DNA of 64,000 bases from Roseburia sp. (lineage in GTDB: Bacteria; Bacillota; Clostridia; Christensenellales; Pumilibacteraceae). This document shows positions 14,197-50,492 of this stretch, in pieces (the first letter of the stretch is position 1; the number at the start of each line of letters is the position of its first letter). The notes beneath the pieces were generated by a model that saw only the letters and a program-made list of their open reading frames with translations, had not been told where the DNA came from and searched no databases. The stretch is from contig JAMPDA010000006.1 in NCBI GenBank assembly GCA_023665905.1, positions 1-64,000 of the forward strand, in the 5' to 3' direction. The translations under genes were made by a program, and so were the position numbers.

Positions 14197-17004
14197 TCAG
14201 CGCTCGAATATAGCCGAGCCGTACGCGCCGATATTGGCGCTTCCGAATAGCGCCGTGCCCGAATCGCTCACGGTCTTGCTCGAGCCCGTCAGGTTGTGGT
14301 AAGAAACTATCGTTTCCGAGCCCTTTGTGACCGTTATCTTGAGCAAGCCGTTATCGTTGGCGCAAGTGACGTTGCCGCTTATCAACGCCGAGTGGGCGTT
14401 GCGCACGGCGGTCAGCGCCTTTACGTAATTGAGCAGCGACGAGGGATTGGGTTCCTGATCCGCCACGCTTGACGTGCTGCCGTTAAGGTTCAAGTCGGTA
14501 ATGGCGGTGCACTTATTCTGCCAAGTGCTCGTCCACTTCATCGACTGACGTCTGCCGTCGTCGCCCGTTGCTTGGCTCACCTGATATCCCACTAAACCTA
14601 TCTCGTCGCCGTAGTATATCCAGCTCAGTCCCGGCAAAGTCATTATTATCGCGAAATACAGTTTGCGATACGATTCGTTATTGAGATAATACTGCAAGCG
14701 GTTGATATCGTGGTTGGACGAGATCCAGGAGTTTATCGCCCTGTCGCCGCGCGCGGAGTTGTACATAGAAACGTTGCTGTTGACCATGCCCACGATGCTG
14801 TTTACATCGCTGTTTTTGATATTGTTCGGAAGATTGAAGAACGCGCAGAAATCGAACAGGCTGTCCATTCCGGCATAGAACGGCGACACGTTGCCGGCAT
14901 TGCCGTCGAGTTGCTCGCCCAAAAGGAAGCAGTGCGGATATTTGGACTTGAGTTTGTAGTTGAATTCCTTGAAGAACTCGACGTTTTTGGTGAGGTTGTA
15001 CCTATAATCGGTTTCGCCGCGATAATCGTCGCCGCCGGCGTTTGTGCTTTCGTCCGACATGAATATGTGCTTGATAGCGTCCATGCGGAAGCCGTCCAGC
15101 CCGAAGTTCATCCAATACGACGCAACGTCCGTCATCATATTTCTTACGGCTTGACAGTCGTAATTGAGCTCAGGCATGCCGGCGCCGAACGACGAATAAT
15201 ACGACCAGCCGTCGCCCGTCGTGTACCAGCGTCCGCCGCCGTCCGACTGCTTCCACCTGTAGAAATCGCGGTACTTGATCTGAGCGGTACTGCCGTCCTG
15301 ATAGGTCGTCGTTTCGATTATGCCCTGCTTGGACTTTAAGAACCACTCGTTGCGCGTGGAAGTGTGGTTTACGACGAGGTCCATTATGACCTTCATTCCG
15401 TTCTCGTGCGCCTTATACACCAGCTCGCGATAGTCGGCATTCGTGCCGAACTTGGGATCTATACTGTAATAATCGTAGCAGTCGTAGCCGTGATACGAGT
15501 CGCTGAGCTGTATGGGCGTCAGCCACAAAACATCGACGTTCAGCCCTTTAAGATATGTGAGCTTATTGATAATTCCGCGGATATCGCCCACGCCGTCGTT
15601 ATTGCTGTCGCAGAAAGACGCGACGAATATCTGATATCCCACGCCCATGTCGTCACAGGTCGTAGCCGTCGAGGCCTTGGGCAGGGTTGCCGCATACGAA
15701 CGGTTGACGTCGGAATTGCTCGCACGCATATTCTCTTTATTGGAGCTGTACTCGAAGCCGCTCAAGTACGCCTTGCCGTCCGACGTTTCGCCCTCTTTGA
15801 TGAACCAGTGATAGCTGTCGCCCACCTTGCGCGCGTTAGACTTGGAAACGCTGCAATCTCCGCCGTCCTCGCTTATCCAATTATCGTTCTCGATGATCGC
15901 CGCCTTGAAGTTGAACGACGAGCCGTACGACGAAAGTGATATCGCATAGACCGCGCCCGAAGCGTCCGTAGTGGTCTTGGTTACCTTCGTGCTGCTGCCG
16001 TTTCCCCACACCCAAAGCGACCATCTGCTGTAATCGCCGTTCATGCGCAGATAGTGTATGTACATGGTGTTGGACGCCGTCATCGTCGGCGTATAGCTTA
16101 TCTCGTCGCTGCCGACGCGCTGCCACTTGGCGAACAGCGTCATGTTGTCCTGAATTTTATCGGTGGAAAAATCCCAAGCGGTCGTGCCGTTTTCGACGTA
16201 CCAGCCGGTAAGGGTGTAGCCGCTGCGCGTCACATTGGGCGCAGTGAGCTTGGTATTGCTCTTAACGGTCTGCGCCGCAGGATTGCTCAATCCCGCTTTG
16301 CGCGCGGCGAGCGTAACATTGAACGTAGCGGTCACATCGTTCGTCCCCGGCGTGTCGTCGCCGTTGTCGCCGTTGTCGCCGTTGTCGCCATCATTGTCGC
16401 CATTGTCGCCGTTATCGCCGTTGTCACCGTTATCGCCGTTATCGCCGTTGCCGCTTGTCGAAGTCCACTTGGCGTACAGGAAGGTGTCGCGCGTGATCGT
16501 ATTTTCGGAAAAATTCCAGGCGGTAGTGCGCGTCGCGTCGGCAAACCAGCCGTCGAACCGATATCCGCTCTTTGTGGGCGCGGCAGGCTCCGCCACCTTT
16601 TCGCCCGATTGAACGCGTTTACTGTCAACCGCGCTTCCGCCGTCGCTGTAGAACGTGACGGTGTAGTAGACCGTTTCGGCGTTCGCCCACTTGGCGTAGA
16701 GCGTTATATTTCGTTCTATGGGTGTCGTTTCAAAGCCGAACGGCTTGGAAAACGCCACGTCGGAGTACCAGTCCACAAAAGTATAACCCGAGAACGTCGG
16801 ATTGGTCGGGCGCTCCGCGGTTTCCCCCGACAGAATGCTTTGGCTTTGGACCTCGCTTCCGCCGTTGGAATTAAACGTGACCGTATAGTATGTATCGCCG
16901 CCCTTATTTGAGCAGCCGGCAAGCGCAACAGCCGCGCCGAGTATAACGGCAACGACCGCCGCAACAGCCGCGGTAAACCCGAACCGTTTTTGTTTGTTTT
17001 TCAT
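14197..17004 (-). CDS. Secreted lipoprotein alpha-amylase/pullulanase-like enzyme (GH13) with InlB-type repeats
   Basis: A 935-aa surface glucan-degrading enzyme. The signal peptide ends in the lipobox LAGC (Cys31). Three Flg_new/Listeria-Bacteroides repeats follow (about 39-110, 114-181, 226-292), each with a GY..GWY...W core and a YAKW/FAKW end. A Gly-Asp-Asn linker (about 184-220) separates repeats two and three. Residues about 297-420 resemble a CBM41/pullulanase N-domain (MYIHYLRMNGDYSRWSLWVWG). The GH13 barrel carries Asp in GFRMDAIKH (~640), Glu in LLGEQ (~695) and Asp in SSNHD (~765). GGAGGG precedes the ATG. Its promoter lies upstream of repeat copy 2, giving an unusually long leader. 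Confidence 0.9.
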   Translation of the reverse strand: MKNKQKRFGFTAAVAAVVAVILGAAVALAGCSNKGGDTYYTVTFNSNGGSEVQSQSILSGETAERPTNPTFSGYTFVDWYSDVAFSKPFGFETTPIERNITLYAKWANAETVYYTVTFYSDGGSAVDSKRVQSGEKVAEPAAPTKSGYRFDGWFADATRTTAWNFSENTITRDTFLYAKWTSTSGNGDNGDNGDNGDNGDNGDNDGDNGDNGDNGDDTPGTNDVTATFNVTLAARKAGLSNPAAQTVKSNTKLTAPNVTRSGYTLTGWYVENGTTAWDFSTDKIQDNMTLFAKWQRVGSDEISYTPTMTASNTMYIHYLRMNGDYSRWSLWVWGNGSSTKVTKTTTDASGAVYAISLSSYGSSFNFKAAIIENDNWISEDGGDCSVSKSNARKVGDSYHWFIKEGETSDGKAYLSGFEYSSNKENMRASNSDVNRSYAATLPKASTATTCDDMGVGYQIFVASFCDSNNDGVGDIRGIINKLTYLKGLNVDVLWLTPIQLSDSYHGYDCYDYYSIDPKFGTNADYRELVYKAHENGMKVIMDLVVNHTSTRNEWFLKSKQGIIETTTYQDGSTAQIKYRDFYRWKQSDGGGRWYTTGDGWSYYSSFGAGMPELNYDCQAVRNMMTDVASYWMNFGLDGFRMDAIKHIFMSDESTNAGGDDYRGETDYRYNLTKNVEFFKEFNYKLKSKYPHCFLLGEQLDGNAGNVSPFYAGMDSLFDFCAFFNLPNNIKNSDVNSIVGMVNSNVSMYNSARGDRAINSWISSNHDINRLQYYLNNESYRKLYFAIIMTLPGLSWIYYGDEIGLVGYQVSQATGDDGRRQSMKWTSTWQNKCTAITDLNLNGSTSSVADQEPNPSSLLNYVKALTAVRNAHSALISGNVTCANDNGLLKITVTKGSETIVSYHNLTGSSKTVSDSGTALFGSANIGAYGSAIFER
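16364..16455 (-). repeat. 9-bp microsatellite coding the Gly-Asp-Asn linker
   Basis: About ten tandem copies of a 9-bp unit (plus-strand phase CGCCGTTGT with T/A variants) encode GDN repeats in the amylase. The unit is a multiple of three, so slippage would change linker length without a frameshift. Confidence 0.85.
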
Positions 17005-18547: not shown

Positions 18548-18631
18548 GTATATTCCGAAATTTCGGCTATGTATTTTGGAAAATCTGTTATCGACATAAA
18601 ATTACGAAATTAACCGCGCGCAATCACAAAA

Positions 18632-18660
18632 CCAAAAGCCCGAGAATATCGGGCTTTTGG
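18632..18660. terminator. Bidirectional terminator ending the sigma-factor operon
   Basis: A perfect 12-bp stem CCAAAAGCCCGA/TCGGGCTTTTGG with a 5-nt loop, 13 nt past the lipoprotein stop. The stem itself provides T-rich ends in both directions. Confidence 0.88.
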
Positions 18661-18673
18661 CAGATGTTCGCCT

Positions 18674-19198
18674 TTACGCTTCCGTGCTGATAGTGATTGT
18701 AACAAAACCCGCGACCGGCACCTGAACCGGCTCGCCATTTTCATAGACCATATCGTCAAGTGGGCTCCTATCGGTTATTTTACTGACAACACGCTCTTGG
18801 GCGCACGGTTGCAAAACTTTTATAATGAAATGATTGGCTTCATCCGGATTTACTTTTATTTCTATTTTTGTTTCGTCGTATTCGAATTCGGTCGGATAAT
18901 AATATTCCGGATCGGACAACTTCATTTCACGGCCATCATCATAAAAAAACATATCGTATTCGGTATTTACAGCTAATACGGCGCTTTTTTGATGCTGGTT
19001 GCCCTTGCCGCTGTAATTACTCCAAAGAGCTGACCCGTCTTCCCAAAAACACTTGTCTGTTCCGCCGCTGTCTTGTATAACCGTATCGACCGCTATCAGC
19101 ATGGGACTACTTCCACTCTGCGTATTTTGTTTGTCTGTGCATGCAAAGAAAGAACAACAAATCAATCCCGTCAGCAATATGAGCACAAATTTTTTCAT
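18674..19198 (-). CDS. Small lipoprotein of the sigma-factor operon
   Basis: A 174-aa lipoprotein of unknown function. The N-terminus MKKFVLILLTGLICCSFFAC is a lipoprotein signal with the acylated Cys at residue 20. The mature part is acidic and beta-rich (TEFEYDETKIEIKVNPDEANHF), ending in an immunoglobulin-like strand pair (VPVAGFVTITIST). TGAGG precedes the ATG. It lies 43 nt downstream of the membrane protein at 19242-20030 and before a strong terminator. The context suggests an envelope protein controlled by, or sensed through, the ECF-type sigma factor. No family assigned. Confidence 0.8.
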   Translation of the reverse strand: MKKFVLILLTGLICCSFFACTDKQNTQSGSSPMLIAVDTVIQDSGGTDKCFWEDGSALWSNYSGKGNQHQKSAVLAVNTEYDMFFYDDGREMKLSDPEYYYPTEFEYDETKIEIKVNPDEANHFIIKVLQPCAQERVVSKITDRSPLDDMVYENGEPVQVPVAGFVTITISTEA

Positions 19199-19241
19199 AT
19201 CAGCGCCTCAAAAGTGAATTTTATTAAACACGACCTTCTTT

Positions 19242-20030
19242 TTATTGCTGTGACAAGAGCAATTCTTCTGCTATCTCGAAAAGCCTTGTTCCGTCGGGAT
19301 CATCCTTTAAAGTGATATAATAGCCGTAGCTGTCGAAATCGAAGATACCGTAGGTATAGCTGTAGCCCGCTCCCCACTTGATCGGAATATCGGACACCGT
19401 GCTTTCGTTGGTGCAAACAGATATATTGTATGCCAAAAACGCCAAAGTTTCGGCGTCGGCAGTGACGACGTACTCTATTTCATCATTGGTATTCGTGTCT
19501 TTAAAGCTCACGCTAAAGCCCAAAAAACCGCCCGCGGACCTTCGGGTGTATTCGGCGAACGAATATTCGGTCGCGCCCTGCCTGTCTAAGTACAAAAAAT
19601 GCGTGCCGTGCAGTTCGTTATATTCTTGAACGGTGCACTGTAAATTCGACTTTTCATACGCAGGGTCTTGCGCCGAGCCCCCGGAGCCGCCCGGATCGCC
19701 CACGTAGTCAAAGTCGTCGGAGCCTCCGGGGTCGCCCGAATCGCCCGAGTAGTCAAAGTCGCCGGAGCTGCTCCATCCGCCCGAGCCGTCCGACTCGCCG
19801 CTGTTGCGCAACAGCAATGTAGGGATCAAAACGACAGCCAAAACCGCCGCCGACGCGAGCGGCGCAAATATAGCCACTCGCCTGCCGATCGACTTTTTTT
19901 TCGCCGCGGTGTTGCTCGCGCCCGTATTTTGCGAAATCTCGGGGTGCGCTTTTTTCAGCTCCTCCGCCAGAGCTTTATTATCGCGCGCGCCGTTTTCACG
20001 TATGATTTTGTGAAGATCTTGTTCCCTCAA
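19242..20030 (-). CDS. Membrane protein, probable anti-sigma factor or sigma-operon sensor
   Basis: A 262-aa single-pass protein. The charged cytoplasmic N-terminus (about 1-48) includes AEELKKAHPEI. One transmembrane helix (about 51-72, VAIFAPLASAAVLAVVLIPTLLL) leads to a Gly/Asp/Ser repeat stalk (DFDYSGDSGDPGGSDDFDYVGD) and an extracytoplasmic domain of about 140 aa (LQCTVQEYNELHG...LFEIAEELL). The topology and position directly after the sigma gene fit an anti-sigma factor, but no ZAS or other known motif is visible, so this is inferred. The start is TTG at 20028-20030, fixed by GGAGG 5 nt upstream. Confidence 0.75.
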   Translation of the reverse strand: MREQDLHKIIRENGARDNKALAEELKKAHPEISQNTGASNTAAKKKSIGRRVAIFAPLASAAVLAVVLIPTLLLRNSGESDGSGGWSSSGDFDYSGDSGDPGGSDDFDYVGDPGGSGGSAQDPAYEKSNLQCTVQEYNELHGTHFLYLDRQGATEYSFAEYTRRSAGGFLGFSVSFKDTNTNDEIEYVVTADAETLAFLAYNISVCTNESTVSDIPIKWGAGYSYTYGIFDFDSYGYYITLKDDPDGTRLFEIAEELLLSQQ

Positions 20031-20084
20031 ACGAACCTCCGATACGTATAGGTATATAGCAGATTTTGAAGTTTTGTCCGAAAC

Positions 20085-20618
20085 TCACTCCAAATATTTT
20101 TCCAATTTTTTCAAAGCGCGCTTCAAGACATAGGCGACCGAGCTTTTGGGCATGCCCGTCTGTTTTGCGATCTCACGCACCGTCATGCCCATGAATATCT
20201 TGCTTTCTATTATCTCGCGCTCCTGCGCGTCGAGCTTAGCTATCGCCTGCTCCACATCGTATTTATCCAATATCCCGTCGTCGAAAGACGGTCCGCCGCT
20301 GTCGGCGTATTTGTTTTCGTCCGCCGCCGCTTCCGCCGCGACCTCGACCGCGTTGCGGTTCAGCCTGTACGCCTCGTTCTGCGTTATTTTAACTATCCAA
20401 GCCAAGCCGTTTTTCGAGCTGTCGAAAGAGTGCACGGCGCTCAAGATCCTGTCGTAAGCCGAAAACACGACGTCCTCGACGAGCGATTTGTCTGCGAGAT
20501 ACTTATAGGCTATGTACTGCATATACCCGCGCGAATAATCAATGAACTCTTCCAAGCAGTCTTCGCCGTTCATCAACTCGAATAAATATCTATTGATTTG
20601 TTCGCGAGTGGTTTTCAT
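20085..20618 (-). CDS. RNA polymerase sigma factor, ECF-like
   Basis: A 177-aa sigma-70 family protein with region 2 (residues about 20-90: YMQYIAYKYL.DKSLVEDVVFSAYDRIL, then the WIVKITQNEAYRLNR part) and region 4 (about 118-175: LDAQEREIIESKIFMGMTVREIAKQTGMPKSSVAYVLKRALKKLEKYL, a clear helix-turn-helix). A short acidic linker replaces region 3, as in ECF factors. It is the first gene of a three-gene operon with a membrane partner and a lipoprotein. The promoter -10 is only 6 nt before the ATG, so the message is leaderless. Confidence 0.9.
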   Translation of the reverse strand: MKTTREQINRYLFELMNGEDCLEEFIDYSRGYMQYIAYKYLADKSLVEDVVFSAYDRILSAVHSFDSSKNGLAWIVKITQNEAYRLNRNAVEVAAEAAADENKYADSGGPSFDDGILDKYDVEQAIAKLDAQEREIIESKIFMGMTVREIAKQTGMPKSSVAYVLKRALKKLEKYLE

Positions 20619-20624
20619 GTTTAC

Positions 20625-20653
20625 ACTATATTATTTTTAACGCCGTTTGTCAA
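20625..20653 (-). promoter_or_regulatory. Leaderless promoter of the sigma-factor operon
   Basis: TTGACA (20648-20653), 17-nt spacer, TATAGT (20625-20630), then GTAAAC and the ATG. It has housekeeping-type rather than ECF-type elements, so autoregulation is not evident. Confidence 0.83.
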
Positions 20654-20705: not shown

Positions 20706-20939
20706 TTACGCGTTGGCTTTTTTCCACGCATCGGCTTTCGCCTTGGTGAGAGCGACGAGGCTCTCGGTCTTGTACGGGGAATCGGGACCGCCGTTGGCGT
20801 ACAGGAAAAGCGCGCCGTCCGCGGCGACGAACAGTATTTCCTCGTAGCCGGCAGGGTTGCCGTACTCGCAGTGCGTGACCTTTTTTACGATATCCATTTT
20901 TTCGGTGTCGTAAGCCTTGCCCTTGACCGTTTTCTTCAT
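20706..20939 (-). CDS. Small conserved-looking protein, function unknown
   Basis: A 77-aa soluble protein beginning MKKTVKGKAYDTEKMDIVKK and ending with a Lys/Ala helix. The order K-G-K-x-Y-D-T, then GNPAGYEEILFVAADGALFLYANGG, resembles short clostridial proteins that start KKTVNGKVYDT and contain an ALYRT..G.YFL..EGG core, often of unknown function. The likeness is from memory and partial. It has a full expression cassette: promoter at 20970-20998, AAGGAGGTG 7 nt before the ATG, and a strong terminator. It is divergent from ridA. Confidence 0.75.
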   Translation of the reverse strand: MKKTVKGKAYDTEKMDIVKKVTHCEYGNPAGYEEILFVAADGALFLYANGGPDSPYKTESLVALTKAKADAWKKANA

Positions 20940-49092: not shown

Positions 49093-50415
49093 TCAGATAT
49101 TACTTACCACGCCCGAAAAAAGCGTTACATCTTGCCGATCCGTAATGATAAACCCGAAAGCTCTGTCAACAATAAAATCTTCTTTGATAATTATAATTTC
49201 CGAAGGCGCGCTGGTGCCTGCCAACGCCTCGGCTGTCGCCGCCGCGCCTTCGATGCCCTTTCTGTCCACCGTAAGATCGGTCACATGCATAACAGTATCG
49301 CAATGGCTCGGCGTATCGGTCAGCGCGGAAAGATCGCATTCCGACGCTCTGAAAAACAGATCTATTCCGAACTTATCTTGTAATATTTCGGTGATGTTAT
49401 CGTCGTACTTGCACTTGTATTCGGGGAACAAGACCCGCGTCATGTAATGCACACTCATAGACTCATCATAGGAGCCGTAGTCCTCTATGGAATTGACAGA
49501 GGCAATGTTCTCCGTCGAAAAAACGCTGTCTATCGTATGACCGTCCTTGGGCAAAATGAACTTGATCTTATAGCCGCTGTAGGTCGTCGTGTAGAATGTC
49601 GTAAACGTATCGAACTCCGCCGTTCTGCCGCTATTATAAAAGCCTTGCAACAGCAACACGTTTTTTACGGATCCGTCTTTAGCCGTAAAATCGTAGCTGT
49701 CCGACGCAAACGGCAGATCGCTGCCGTCATCACGCCATATTGTTTTGAGATAAAGCGTATTGATAAGCGTAAACAGCGTTTCATCCGAAAGCAGGAAATC
49801 TTTGTCTATTAGACCTTTGGTCTGTTTCTTGACAAAATCCCGAATATCACTATTGGCTTTTTCGGTGTTATATTTGAAATCGGCGGAATATGAGTACGCA
49901 TAATAATTTTCGGACAGGGACTCAATACAGGACCGCTTTACGTCCGCCGAGCTGTCTATCCAAACGGAATTCGTAATATCAAGCAAACCCACGGTCTTGT
50001 CATTCCTCTTATGCTCTACGGCAAGCGAGCGATACAAAGTGGGAAATTGCGTTTCGAGTTGTTGATACGTAACTCCGAGCGCGTCGAGAATTTCACGACG
50101 CGTATTGCCGGCTGTACATTCCGCCGAGAGCGCAAGCGCCATATATACGGATATGGGCGACACGGCAAAATTGTCTTGCCCGTTGTAAACCGAATACGAA
50201 TATGCCGCAAAATCGGCGGCGAACGCCTCGACGCCTTTCTTTAAGAACAGATAATCGTCGGCTTCGAGCGCGGAGTACTCGATTGCCTCAACGGCTTTGG
50301 GCTCGCCCAAAAGCGCGCTTTCGCCTGCGGACGCGCCTCTCCCGCAAGCCGTAAGCGGCAATGCAAACATCACCGCACAAACCATTATCGAAACGATTTT
50401 GTATCTTGCCTTCAT
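49093..50415 (-). CDS. Serpin, lipoprotein-anchored
   Basis: A 440-aa serine protease inhibitor-fold protein. The signal peptide ends LTAC (Cys24), so it is probably lipid-anchored outside the membrane. Serpin blocks seen are NFAVSPISVYMALALSAECTAG, DITNSVWID, LINTLYLKTIW and the C-terminal AFGFIITDRQDVTLFSGVV. The reactive-loop hinge GIEGAAATAEALAG has the small residues needed for loop insertion, so it is predicted inhibitory. The scissile bond should lie near TSAPS. CGGAGG precedes the ATG. Such serpins occur sporadically in gut Firmicutes and bifidobacteria and may protect against host or rival proteases. Confidence 0.92.
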   Translation of the reverse strand: MKARYKIVSIMVCAVMFALPLTACGRGASAGESALLGEPKAVEAIEYSALEADDYLFLKKGVEAFAADFAAYSYSVYNGQDNFAVSPISVYMALALSAECTAGNTRREILDALGVTYQQLETQFPTLYRSLAVEHKRNDKTVGLLDITNSVWIDSSADVKRSCIESLSENYYAYSYSADFKYNTEKANSDIRDFVKKQTKGLIDKDFLLSDETLFTLINTLYLKTIWRDDGSDLPFASDSYDFTAKDGSVKNVLLLQGFYNSGRTAEFDTFTTFYTTTYSGYKIKFILPKDGHTIDSVFSTENIASVNSIEDYGSYDESMSVHYMTRVLFPEYKCKYDDNITEILQDKFGIDLFFRASECDLSALTDTPSHCDTVMHVTDLTVDRKGIEGAAATAEALAGTSAPSEIIIIKEDFIVDRAFGFIITDRQDVTLFSGVVSNI

Positions 50416-50463
50416 ACGTGATCCTCCGAAAAGCTCGAATTACTTTTTGATATGTCATAGAGG

Positions 50464-50492
50464 TATATACGCCGTTCTGCCGTTTTGTCCAA
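50464..50492 (-). promoter_or_regulatory. Serpin promoter
   Basis: TTGGAC (50487-50492), 17-nt spacer, TATATA (50464-50469). Leader about 40 nt ending with CGGAGG. Confidence 0.65.

Follow-up and report, generated by a model that had tools for sequence, protein, structure and literature searches.

The window (the whole stretch of 64,000 nucleotides analyzed here) codes on its minus strand for an ECF-type sigma factor with regions 2 and 4 (177 aa; 20085-20618), a membrane partner that is a probable anti-sigma factor by its alignment and genetic linkage (262 aa, TTG start; 19242-20030), and a lipoprotein (174 aa; 18674-19198). The three genes form one operon, running from a sigma-A-type promoter (TTGACA-17-TATAGT; 20625-20653, minus strand) to an intrinsic terminator with a 13-bp stem (18631-18661, minus strand). 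We place the bounds of the locus at 18674-20653, from the end of the lipoprotein gene to the first base of the -35 box. An earlier note on this DNA described the order as sigma factor, single-pass protein with a stalk and an external domain, and small lipoprotein, and the open reading frames agree; the TTG start that it gave the partner has a Shine-Dalgarno sequence, GGAGG, five bases upstream (20036-20040, minus strand), and its leaderless reading of the sigma gene accords with a -10 box that ends 6 nt before the ATG, a prediction from sequence. Close relatives of the operon are in MAGs labelled Clostridiales bacterium or uncultured Clostridia bacterium.

ECF (group IV) sigma factors have regions 2 and 4 only and are about 170 to 200 aa long, and the window sigma factor, with both regions in 177 aa, is one of them. 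It matches Sigma70_r4_2 (8.4e-12) and Sigma70_r2 (7.7e-7) in Pfam and TIGR02937 in NCBIfam (3e-20, over the cut-off). The promoter in front of it scores 11/12 against the consensus, in a scan that overall returned 5 sites in 3 kb versus 4.0 expected by shuffling, and from the position of its -10 box the predicted RNA start is the A of the ATG itself. Among loci of the genus, a sigma-A-type promoter lies 5 to 9 bases before the start codon in 18 of 29 sigma-matching rows (a picked fragment and a probable non-sigma row are counted among the 29). Other ORFs of at least 120 aa have such a promoter in 15 of 248 cases, and in 13 of 248 when the search is shifted 30 bases upstream. Sigma genes of other genera in the family more often have a Shine-Dalgarno-like sequence. 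A leaderless start peculiar to the sigma gene is rejected, as the same genome has 25 exact matches to TTGACA-N16/18-TATAAT-N4/9-ATG at putative gene starts (13 with a gap of six by manual count), and leaderless starts may be common and widely used in this genome or lineage. The distinctive point is the frequency of predicted leaderless-type placement among the sigma genes of the genus. The available text of a 2011 survey assigns the leaderless genes of Firmicutes to Lactobacillales and Mycoplasma (PMC3160421).

The partner begins with a segment that is cytoplasmic by charge (residues 1-52) and has a predicted helix at residues 6-28, followed by a transmembrane segment (residues ~53-75; 19806-19874, minus strand), assigned by eye with the preceding KKK...RR marking the inside. 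Beyond the membrane are a Gly/Asp/Ser stalk (residues 76-121; 19668-19805, minus strand), delimited by alignment to close homologues and by low model confidence, and an extracellular alpha/beta domain (residues 122-262; 19245-19667, minus strand) modeled by AlphaFold with pLDDT mostly 78-93. All 40 aligned homologues have a short cytoplasmic N-terminus ahead of the membrane segment, and a comparison of six proteins, the window partner and its five closest relatives, shows no change at 13 of the first 31 residues. Across 25 sequences Cys206, Tyr137, and Tyr237 do not vary, but Cys206 is not conserved throughout the 40. The stalk consists of the repeat units DFDYSGDSGDPGGSD and DFDYVGDPGGSGGS, the second copy being shortened. 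That the stalk may vary in length, as had been suggested, is borne out by the alignment, in which the five closest homologues have shorter linkers; these homologues also lack the repeat, which is confined to the window partner and is rejected as a feature of the family. We note that the window also codes for an exported alpha-amylase (14197-17004, minus strand) with Listeria-Bacteroides repeats and a long linker of Gly-Asp-Asn repeats. Considered alongside the partner stalk, it suggests that surface proteins of this organism habitually contain Gly/Asp linkers.

The partner matches no Pfam or NCBIfam family at E≤1, RsiV, RsgI, and RsiW included, in keeping with the earlier note, which had seen no recognized anti-sigma motif in it, and a profile of 40 partners against PDB sequences gave nothing below E 0.069. 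A presumed resemblance of the outer domain to DUF4367 is absent from every Pfam and NCBIfam scan result. In an AlphaFold model built from six rows, block means over residues 121-262 are mostly 78-93 and nearly all of residues 34-119 fall below 50; the predicted order of elements in the outer domain is E-H-E-E-E-H-E-E-E-E-H. Foldseek returned no match to this domain at E≤0.001. The best 28 rows from VIA-align have Z scores of 5.0-7.6 (rmsd 3.3-4.6 over 85-118 residues), headed among the matches listed by Dip2269 (Z 7.6) and Tsi3 (7.5), with the RseB C-terminal domain at Z 7.0-7.5 (rmsd 3.4-4.1, 91-98 aligned), MucB at 6.4, and PsbP/Mog1-like proteins at about 5-6. Because these scores are tied and all have Z <8, we limit the claim to a Mog1/PsbP-like arrangement of the modeled outer domain. 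The lysozyme-binding domain of RsiV is absent among the Foldseek and VIA-align matches listed, which excludes nothing.

Searches with the partner alone give matches in 16/20 genomes of the genus, in 40/74 family genomes at E≤0.001 (with many short ones among the weak matches), and in 61/396 of the order at E≤1e-5. For linkage we used 63 partner ORFs (profile E≤1e-5) from retrieved loci, mainly the stronger matches. By a gene-call filter, 56 of the 63 have a sigma gene upstream on the same strand, and the number rises to 59 when the three forward frames ahead of every partner are checked, with sigma matches that cover at least 140 of 176 model positions. The earlier note had taken homologues never linked to sigma factors as the outcome that would count against its proposal, and this count is in favor of that proposal. 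In all 59, the sigma gene adjoins the partner directly or across a peptidase-type gene only. The four exceptions are one partner at a contig end (L051) and three (L046, L047, and L102) with weak traces of a sigma end (7-9 bits). The partner is a real family, order-wide and regularly encoded with a sigma factor. Two of the exceptions are peptidase-partner pairs (L046 4314-5821 and L047 3601-5108) in which the sigma is a weak trace of its last ~25 codons, and one of these pairs is next to an intact paralogous operon; they look to be natural losses of the sigma gene with the other two genes retained.

The module of sigma and partner put forward in the earlier note is supported, but its three-gene make-up is only one version of the module, the commonest third gene being of a C39-like peptidase type. 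For 39 of the 63 partner ORFs, a protein of this family is coded between sigma and partner. Among 23 companion rows, two of which (L041 and L042) were added by eye, Cys81 is present in at least 90% and His217 in all, and the C39-like label is given because of this conserved Cys and His plus one subthreshold match to PF13529. The best PF13529 score is 22.9 bits versus a cut-off of 24 (L106, 1.4e-4), L105 (0.021) is likewise below the cut-off, and the other companion members scanned with Pfam have no C39 match. L041 and L042 also code for a radical SAM protein (PF04055 by a scan of L041, by likeness in L042) beside a larger protein (L041 6952-8301 and L042 7182-8528) that is C39-like by eye. The putative catalytic Cys of the L042 protein (NNC) is, again by eye, a Tyr in L041, so one of the two may be a dead enzyme. 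The companion in L058 is a GLUG-repeat lipoprotein. A second, diverged module, with sigma, C39-like, and partner-like membrane proteins, is present elsewhere in the genome that contains the window (G000 contig C4, L062 3125-5294, minus strand).

The window lipoprotein has a lipobox Cys20 and, with its relatives, invariant Cys50 and Cys132. It has no Pfam match at E≤1 and three weak NCBIfam matches, all under their own cut-offs, and its profile against PDB sequences gives nothing below 0.33. Full-length relatives are present in 6/74 genomes of the family as eight copies, all within an operon of the lipoprotein type, and 12 further family genomes have weak matches covering the first 31-90 positions only. 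The six lipoprotein-type sigma factors form one clade (100/100 in a midpoint-rooted tree), nested in a 16-row group (96/94) with peptidase-type sigma factors of the genus. Since the peptidase type is scattered over the whole sigma tree, the lipoprotein-carrying version in the window is probably derived.

The search for a promoter motif of the sigma factor itself yielded a candidate. The sigma-partner gaps of six operons have two fixed blocks with free spacers, TTGGACAA-N15/16-ATATACC, with variants TCGGACAA in the window, GGACAG in L041, and CTATACC in L042; the window copy, TCGGACAA-N16-ATATACC, is at 20050-20081 on the minus strand. Both blocks also precede the lipoprotein gene in L039, L040, L041, and L043 and the C39-like gene in L041 (with one mismatch) and L042, so that five operons have the motif before lipoprotein or C39-like genes; the six-operon alignment has no such site before the lipoprotein gene of the window. 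The sites lie 11-46 nt ahead of start codons. Genome-wide searches with GGACAA-N16/17-TATACC give 22 sites for the six genomes that have this operon type and 8 for the 14 other genomes of the genus, against 3 for a reversed control in all 20. In the genome to which the window belongs there are exactly two; both fall within the window, one between sigma and partner and the other at 50462-50490, and a looser pattern gives the same two. With a matrix built from eleven sites of other genomes, the window excluded, 50461-50492 scores 32.8, 20050-20081 scores 27.2, and a third site scores 15.5; 40 random sequences of equal length from a first-order Markov model have a mean maximum of 12.0 and a highest score of 20.4. 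We conclude that this motif is the probable promoter recognized by the sigma factor.

Ahead of the sigma gene in the window, the matrix gives no sense site with a high score, and on that ground autoregulation of the sigma gene from its own promoter is rejected; the gene has a housekeeping promoter and is probably translated leaderless. Sister C39-type operons of the genus carry a different block pair in the same place, GGAAAA-N17-GATATAG, with wider spacing; the class-B-type pattern has 15 matches genome-wide, 6 of them placed at operons, versus 6 for the reversed control. Nine sites of the window-type motif lie outside the operon region in the six genomes, of which four precede lipoprotein genes and five have no evident gene start and look like chance. 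For the eight sites in other genus genomes, the next 200 bases contain no start codon with a Shine-Dalgarno sequence that opens a frame of at least 50 codons. Extra copies facing away are present upstream of sigma in three operons (L041 6385 and L042 6164, in minus-strand counts, and L040 5826), with no evident gene after them and, by eye, hairpins after two; possibly they drive short RNAs.

The second predicted promoter in the window, TTGGACAA-N16-ATATACC (50461-50492, minus strand), is the top-scoring site of the window and, by exact pattern, the only one in this genome beyond the sigma-partner gap, and a lipoprotein serpin of 440 aa starts 46 nt after it (49093-50415, minus strand). The match to PF00079 (E 1.6e-42) spans profile positions 17-369 of 370, a full-length domain, and the serpin is a predicted regulon member. 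Another genome with the same operon type, G006, has a motif site 30 bases before its own serpin. Serpins are coded in 8 of the 20 genus genomes (9 genes), and in both serpin genomes with the lipoprotein-type operon (G000, which contains the window, and G006) the serpin carries a motif site. The other four of the six genomes with this operon type have no serpin, which is therefore no fixed target. None of the seven serpin genes in six genomes lacking the operon type is on a contig bearing a motif site. Upstream DNA was read for 8 of the 9 genes, one of two in G011 being left out, and the G010 serpin has a GGACAAAAC block upstream with the second block absent. A 211-aa lipoprotein, matched in 5/20 genus genomes in all, has a motif site in G006 and G008, which carry its sole full-length copies. 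The earlier note had put the module forward as a possible envelope-stress sensor; these sites point to a predicted regulon of surface proteins that includes the serpin.

We consider it likely that the locus codes for an ECF sigma factor and a dedicated, membrane-anchored anti-sigma factor whose family is missing from the profile libraries, and that the sigma acts through its own promoter on the partner, the lipoprotein, and the serpin. The sigma would be produced from the housekeeping promoter, probably as a leaderless message, and the partner, through its short cytoplasmic part, would keep it at the membrane. An event outside the cell, acting on the extracellular domain or stalk, would free it, by analogy with the regulated proteolysis of RsiV or RseA. 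Free sigma would then use TTGGACAA-N15/16-ATATACC, the sites of which are defined by conservation. With this promoter placed after the sigma gene, more partner and, by read-through, more lipoprotein would be made as negative feedback with no rise in the sigma gene, and the surface serpin 30 kb away would also be raised. On this layout, the brake would strengthen as activity rises, and the sigma gene would not amplify itself. This account is favored because a sigma gene is upstream of 59/63 partner ORFs and because 13 of the first 31 cytoplasmic residues are invariant in six proteins. Also in its favor are the motif in all six sigma-partner gaps, the site counts, the matrix scores, and the sites before serpins in two genomes and before the 211-aa lipoprotein in G006 and G008. 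It is weakened because no anti-sigma family matches the partner, because the window lipoprotein has no site of its own and serpins are missing in four of the six operon genomes, and because five of nine outlying sites and the three outward-facing copies have no evident gene. A further weakness is that an AlphaFold model of a sigma-partner read-through fusion, from only 11 rows, has no confident docking: sigma regions 2 and 4 are at 81-92 and 70-84, the partner helix has pLDDT 46-54 (52-61 without sigma), and pTM is 0.36.

Extracellular proteolysis is attractive as the signal because the output is a serpin and sister modules carry exported peptidase-like proteins. A version nested in the anti-sigma explanation, possible but doubtful, is that outside proteases cut the exposed stalk and so free the sigma, which raises a surface serpin that inhibits them. 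The serpin targets in two genomes and the C39-like peptidase-type proteins of the sister modules are consistent with this, as is the serpin of Bifidobacterium breve, which the available portions of two reports describe as papain-induced via a two-component system (PMC8012564, PMC7822027). However, four of the six operon genomes lack serpins, the repeat stalk is private to the window partner, and both the signal and the inhibitory activity of the serpin are presumed; we offer the protease-sensing account as a guess. A broader and somewhat more speculative form would have an order-wide family of modules managing extracellular proteolysis, most of them with an exported papain-like peptidase coded between sigma and anti-sigma, and with the window version coupling proteolysis of the stalk to a membrane-anchored serpin. 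This form includes an effect of the leaderless sigma message versus the Shine-Dalgarno message of its inhibitor, by which a change in the mode of translation start alone would shift the sigma to anti-sigma ratio.

Less probable is a different arrangement, in which the partner is an exported output and no anti-sigma factor, control of the sigma comes from its level alone or from another protein, and the genes are linked as those of a sigma and its target. The motif between sigma and partner does make the partner a predicted target, the fusion model has no docking, and L046 and L047 retain the peptidase-partner pair with a sigma gene reduced to a weak trace, all of which would suit an output. 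However, an output pure and simple would need no cytoplasmic segment, yet all 40 aligned homologues have one, with good conservation among the close relatives; the pairing with sigma also persists while the third gene changes. It is more improbable still that the motif sites are operators of another regulator or the promoter of another sigma factor, since, although the motif is tied to this sigma by sequence only and G006, G008, and G013 carry extra sites of unclear meaning, there are two blocks at near-fixed spacing with a free spacer 11-46 nt before start codons, site counts track the presence of the lipoprotein-type operon across 20 genomes, and the sister C39-type operons carry GGAAAA-N17-GATATAG in the same place.

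With the partner taken as an anti-sigma factor, the module resembles several known systems. Like SigE-RseA-RseB and AlgU-MucA-MucB, it has a three-part logic with an extra exported protein, and the C-terminal domains of RseB (Z 7.5) and MucB (Z 6.4) superpose on the partner outer domain, but these values are below 8 and tied with the unrelated Tsi3 and Dip2269, kinship is not implied, and the outer domain here is built into the membrane partner. SigI belongs to another sigma group than the window ECF sigma. The SigI-RsgI systems of Clostridium thermocellum also comprise several sigma/membrane anti-sigma pairs in one clostridial genome, as the available text has it (PMC3990059), but they sense carbohydrate, and the window partner has no match to the RsgI model. 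The lysozyme-sensing SigV-RsiV system of Bacillus subtilis and Clostridioides difficile likewise has a membrane anti-sigma factor with an extracellular sensor and a protective output, in the passages available (PMC10202637), whereas the window partner matches no known anti-sigma model, the sigma gene is outside its own predicted promoter, and the predicted target is a serpin rather than wall modification. SerRK-SerU of B. breve also regulates a serpin, with induction by papain in the portions of the reports cited above (PMC8012564, PMC7822027), but through a two-component system rather than the predicted sigma/anti-sigma pair. Class I anti-sigma factors (ASDI) are described, in the part of the source at hand, as having an N-terminal four-helix domain of about 100 aa (PMC7406223). 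The partner falls outside this definition, with ~52 residues before the membrane, one low-confidence predicted helix, and no model match. Of the traits that define an anti-sigma factor by function, encoding together with a sigma holds for 59 of 63 partner ORFs, and binding and inhibition of the sigma are predicted, the fusion model having no confident docking.

In the literature searched, we found no ECF/C39 cassette and no sigma-controlled serpin, and the sigma itself may have been grouped earlier. The module as predicted is a well-supported new variant of ECF signaling, with a probable anti-sigma family invisible to the profile libraries searched and a predicted promoter code that is directly testable. 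It would tie an ECF sigma factor to a bacterial serpin; the protease-induced serpin circuit otherwise met, in the texts available, is the two-component system of Bifidobacterium. The serpin target hints at a switch that may respond to external attack. A ready set of separate switches would come from the order-wide sigma/C39-like/partner cassette, whose paralogues have class-specific promoter blocks. We also note a small protein of 77 aa coded directly upstream of the sigma gene in the window (20706-20939, minus strand) and a similar 76-aa protein in the same place next to a sigma gene in a genome of another family (L200 3379-3609).
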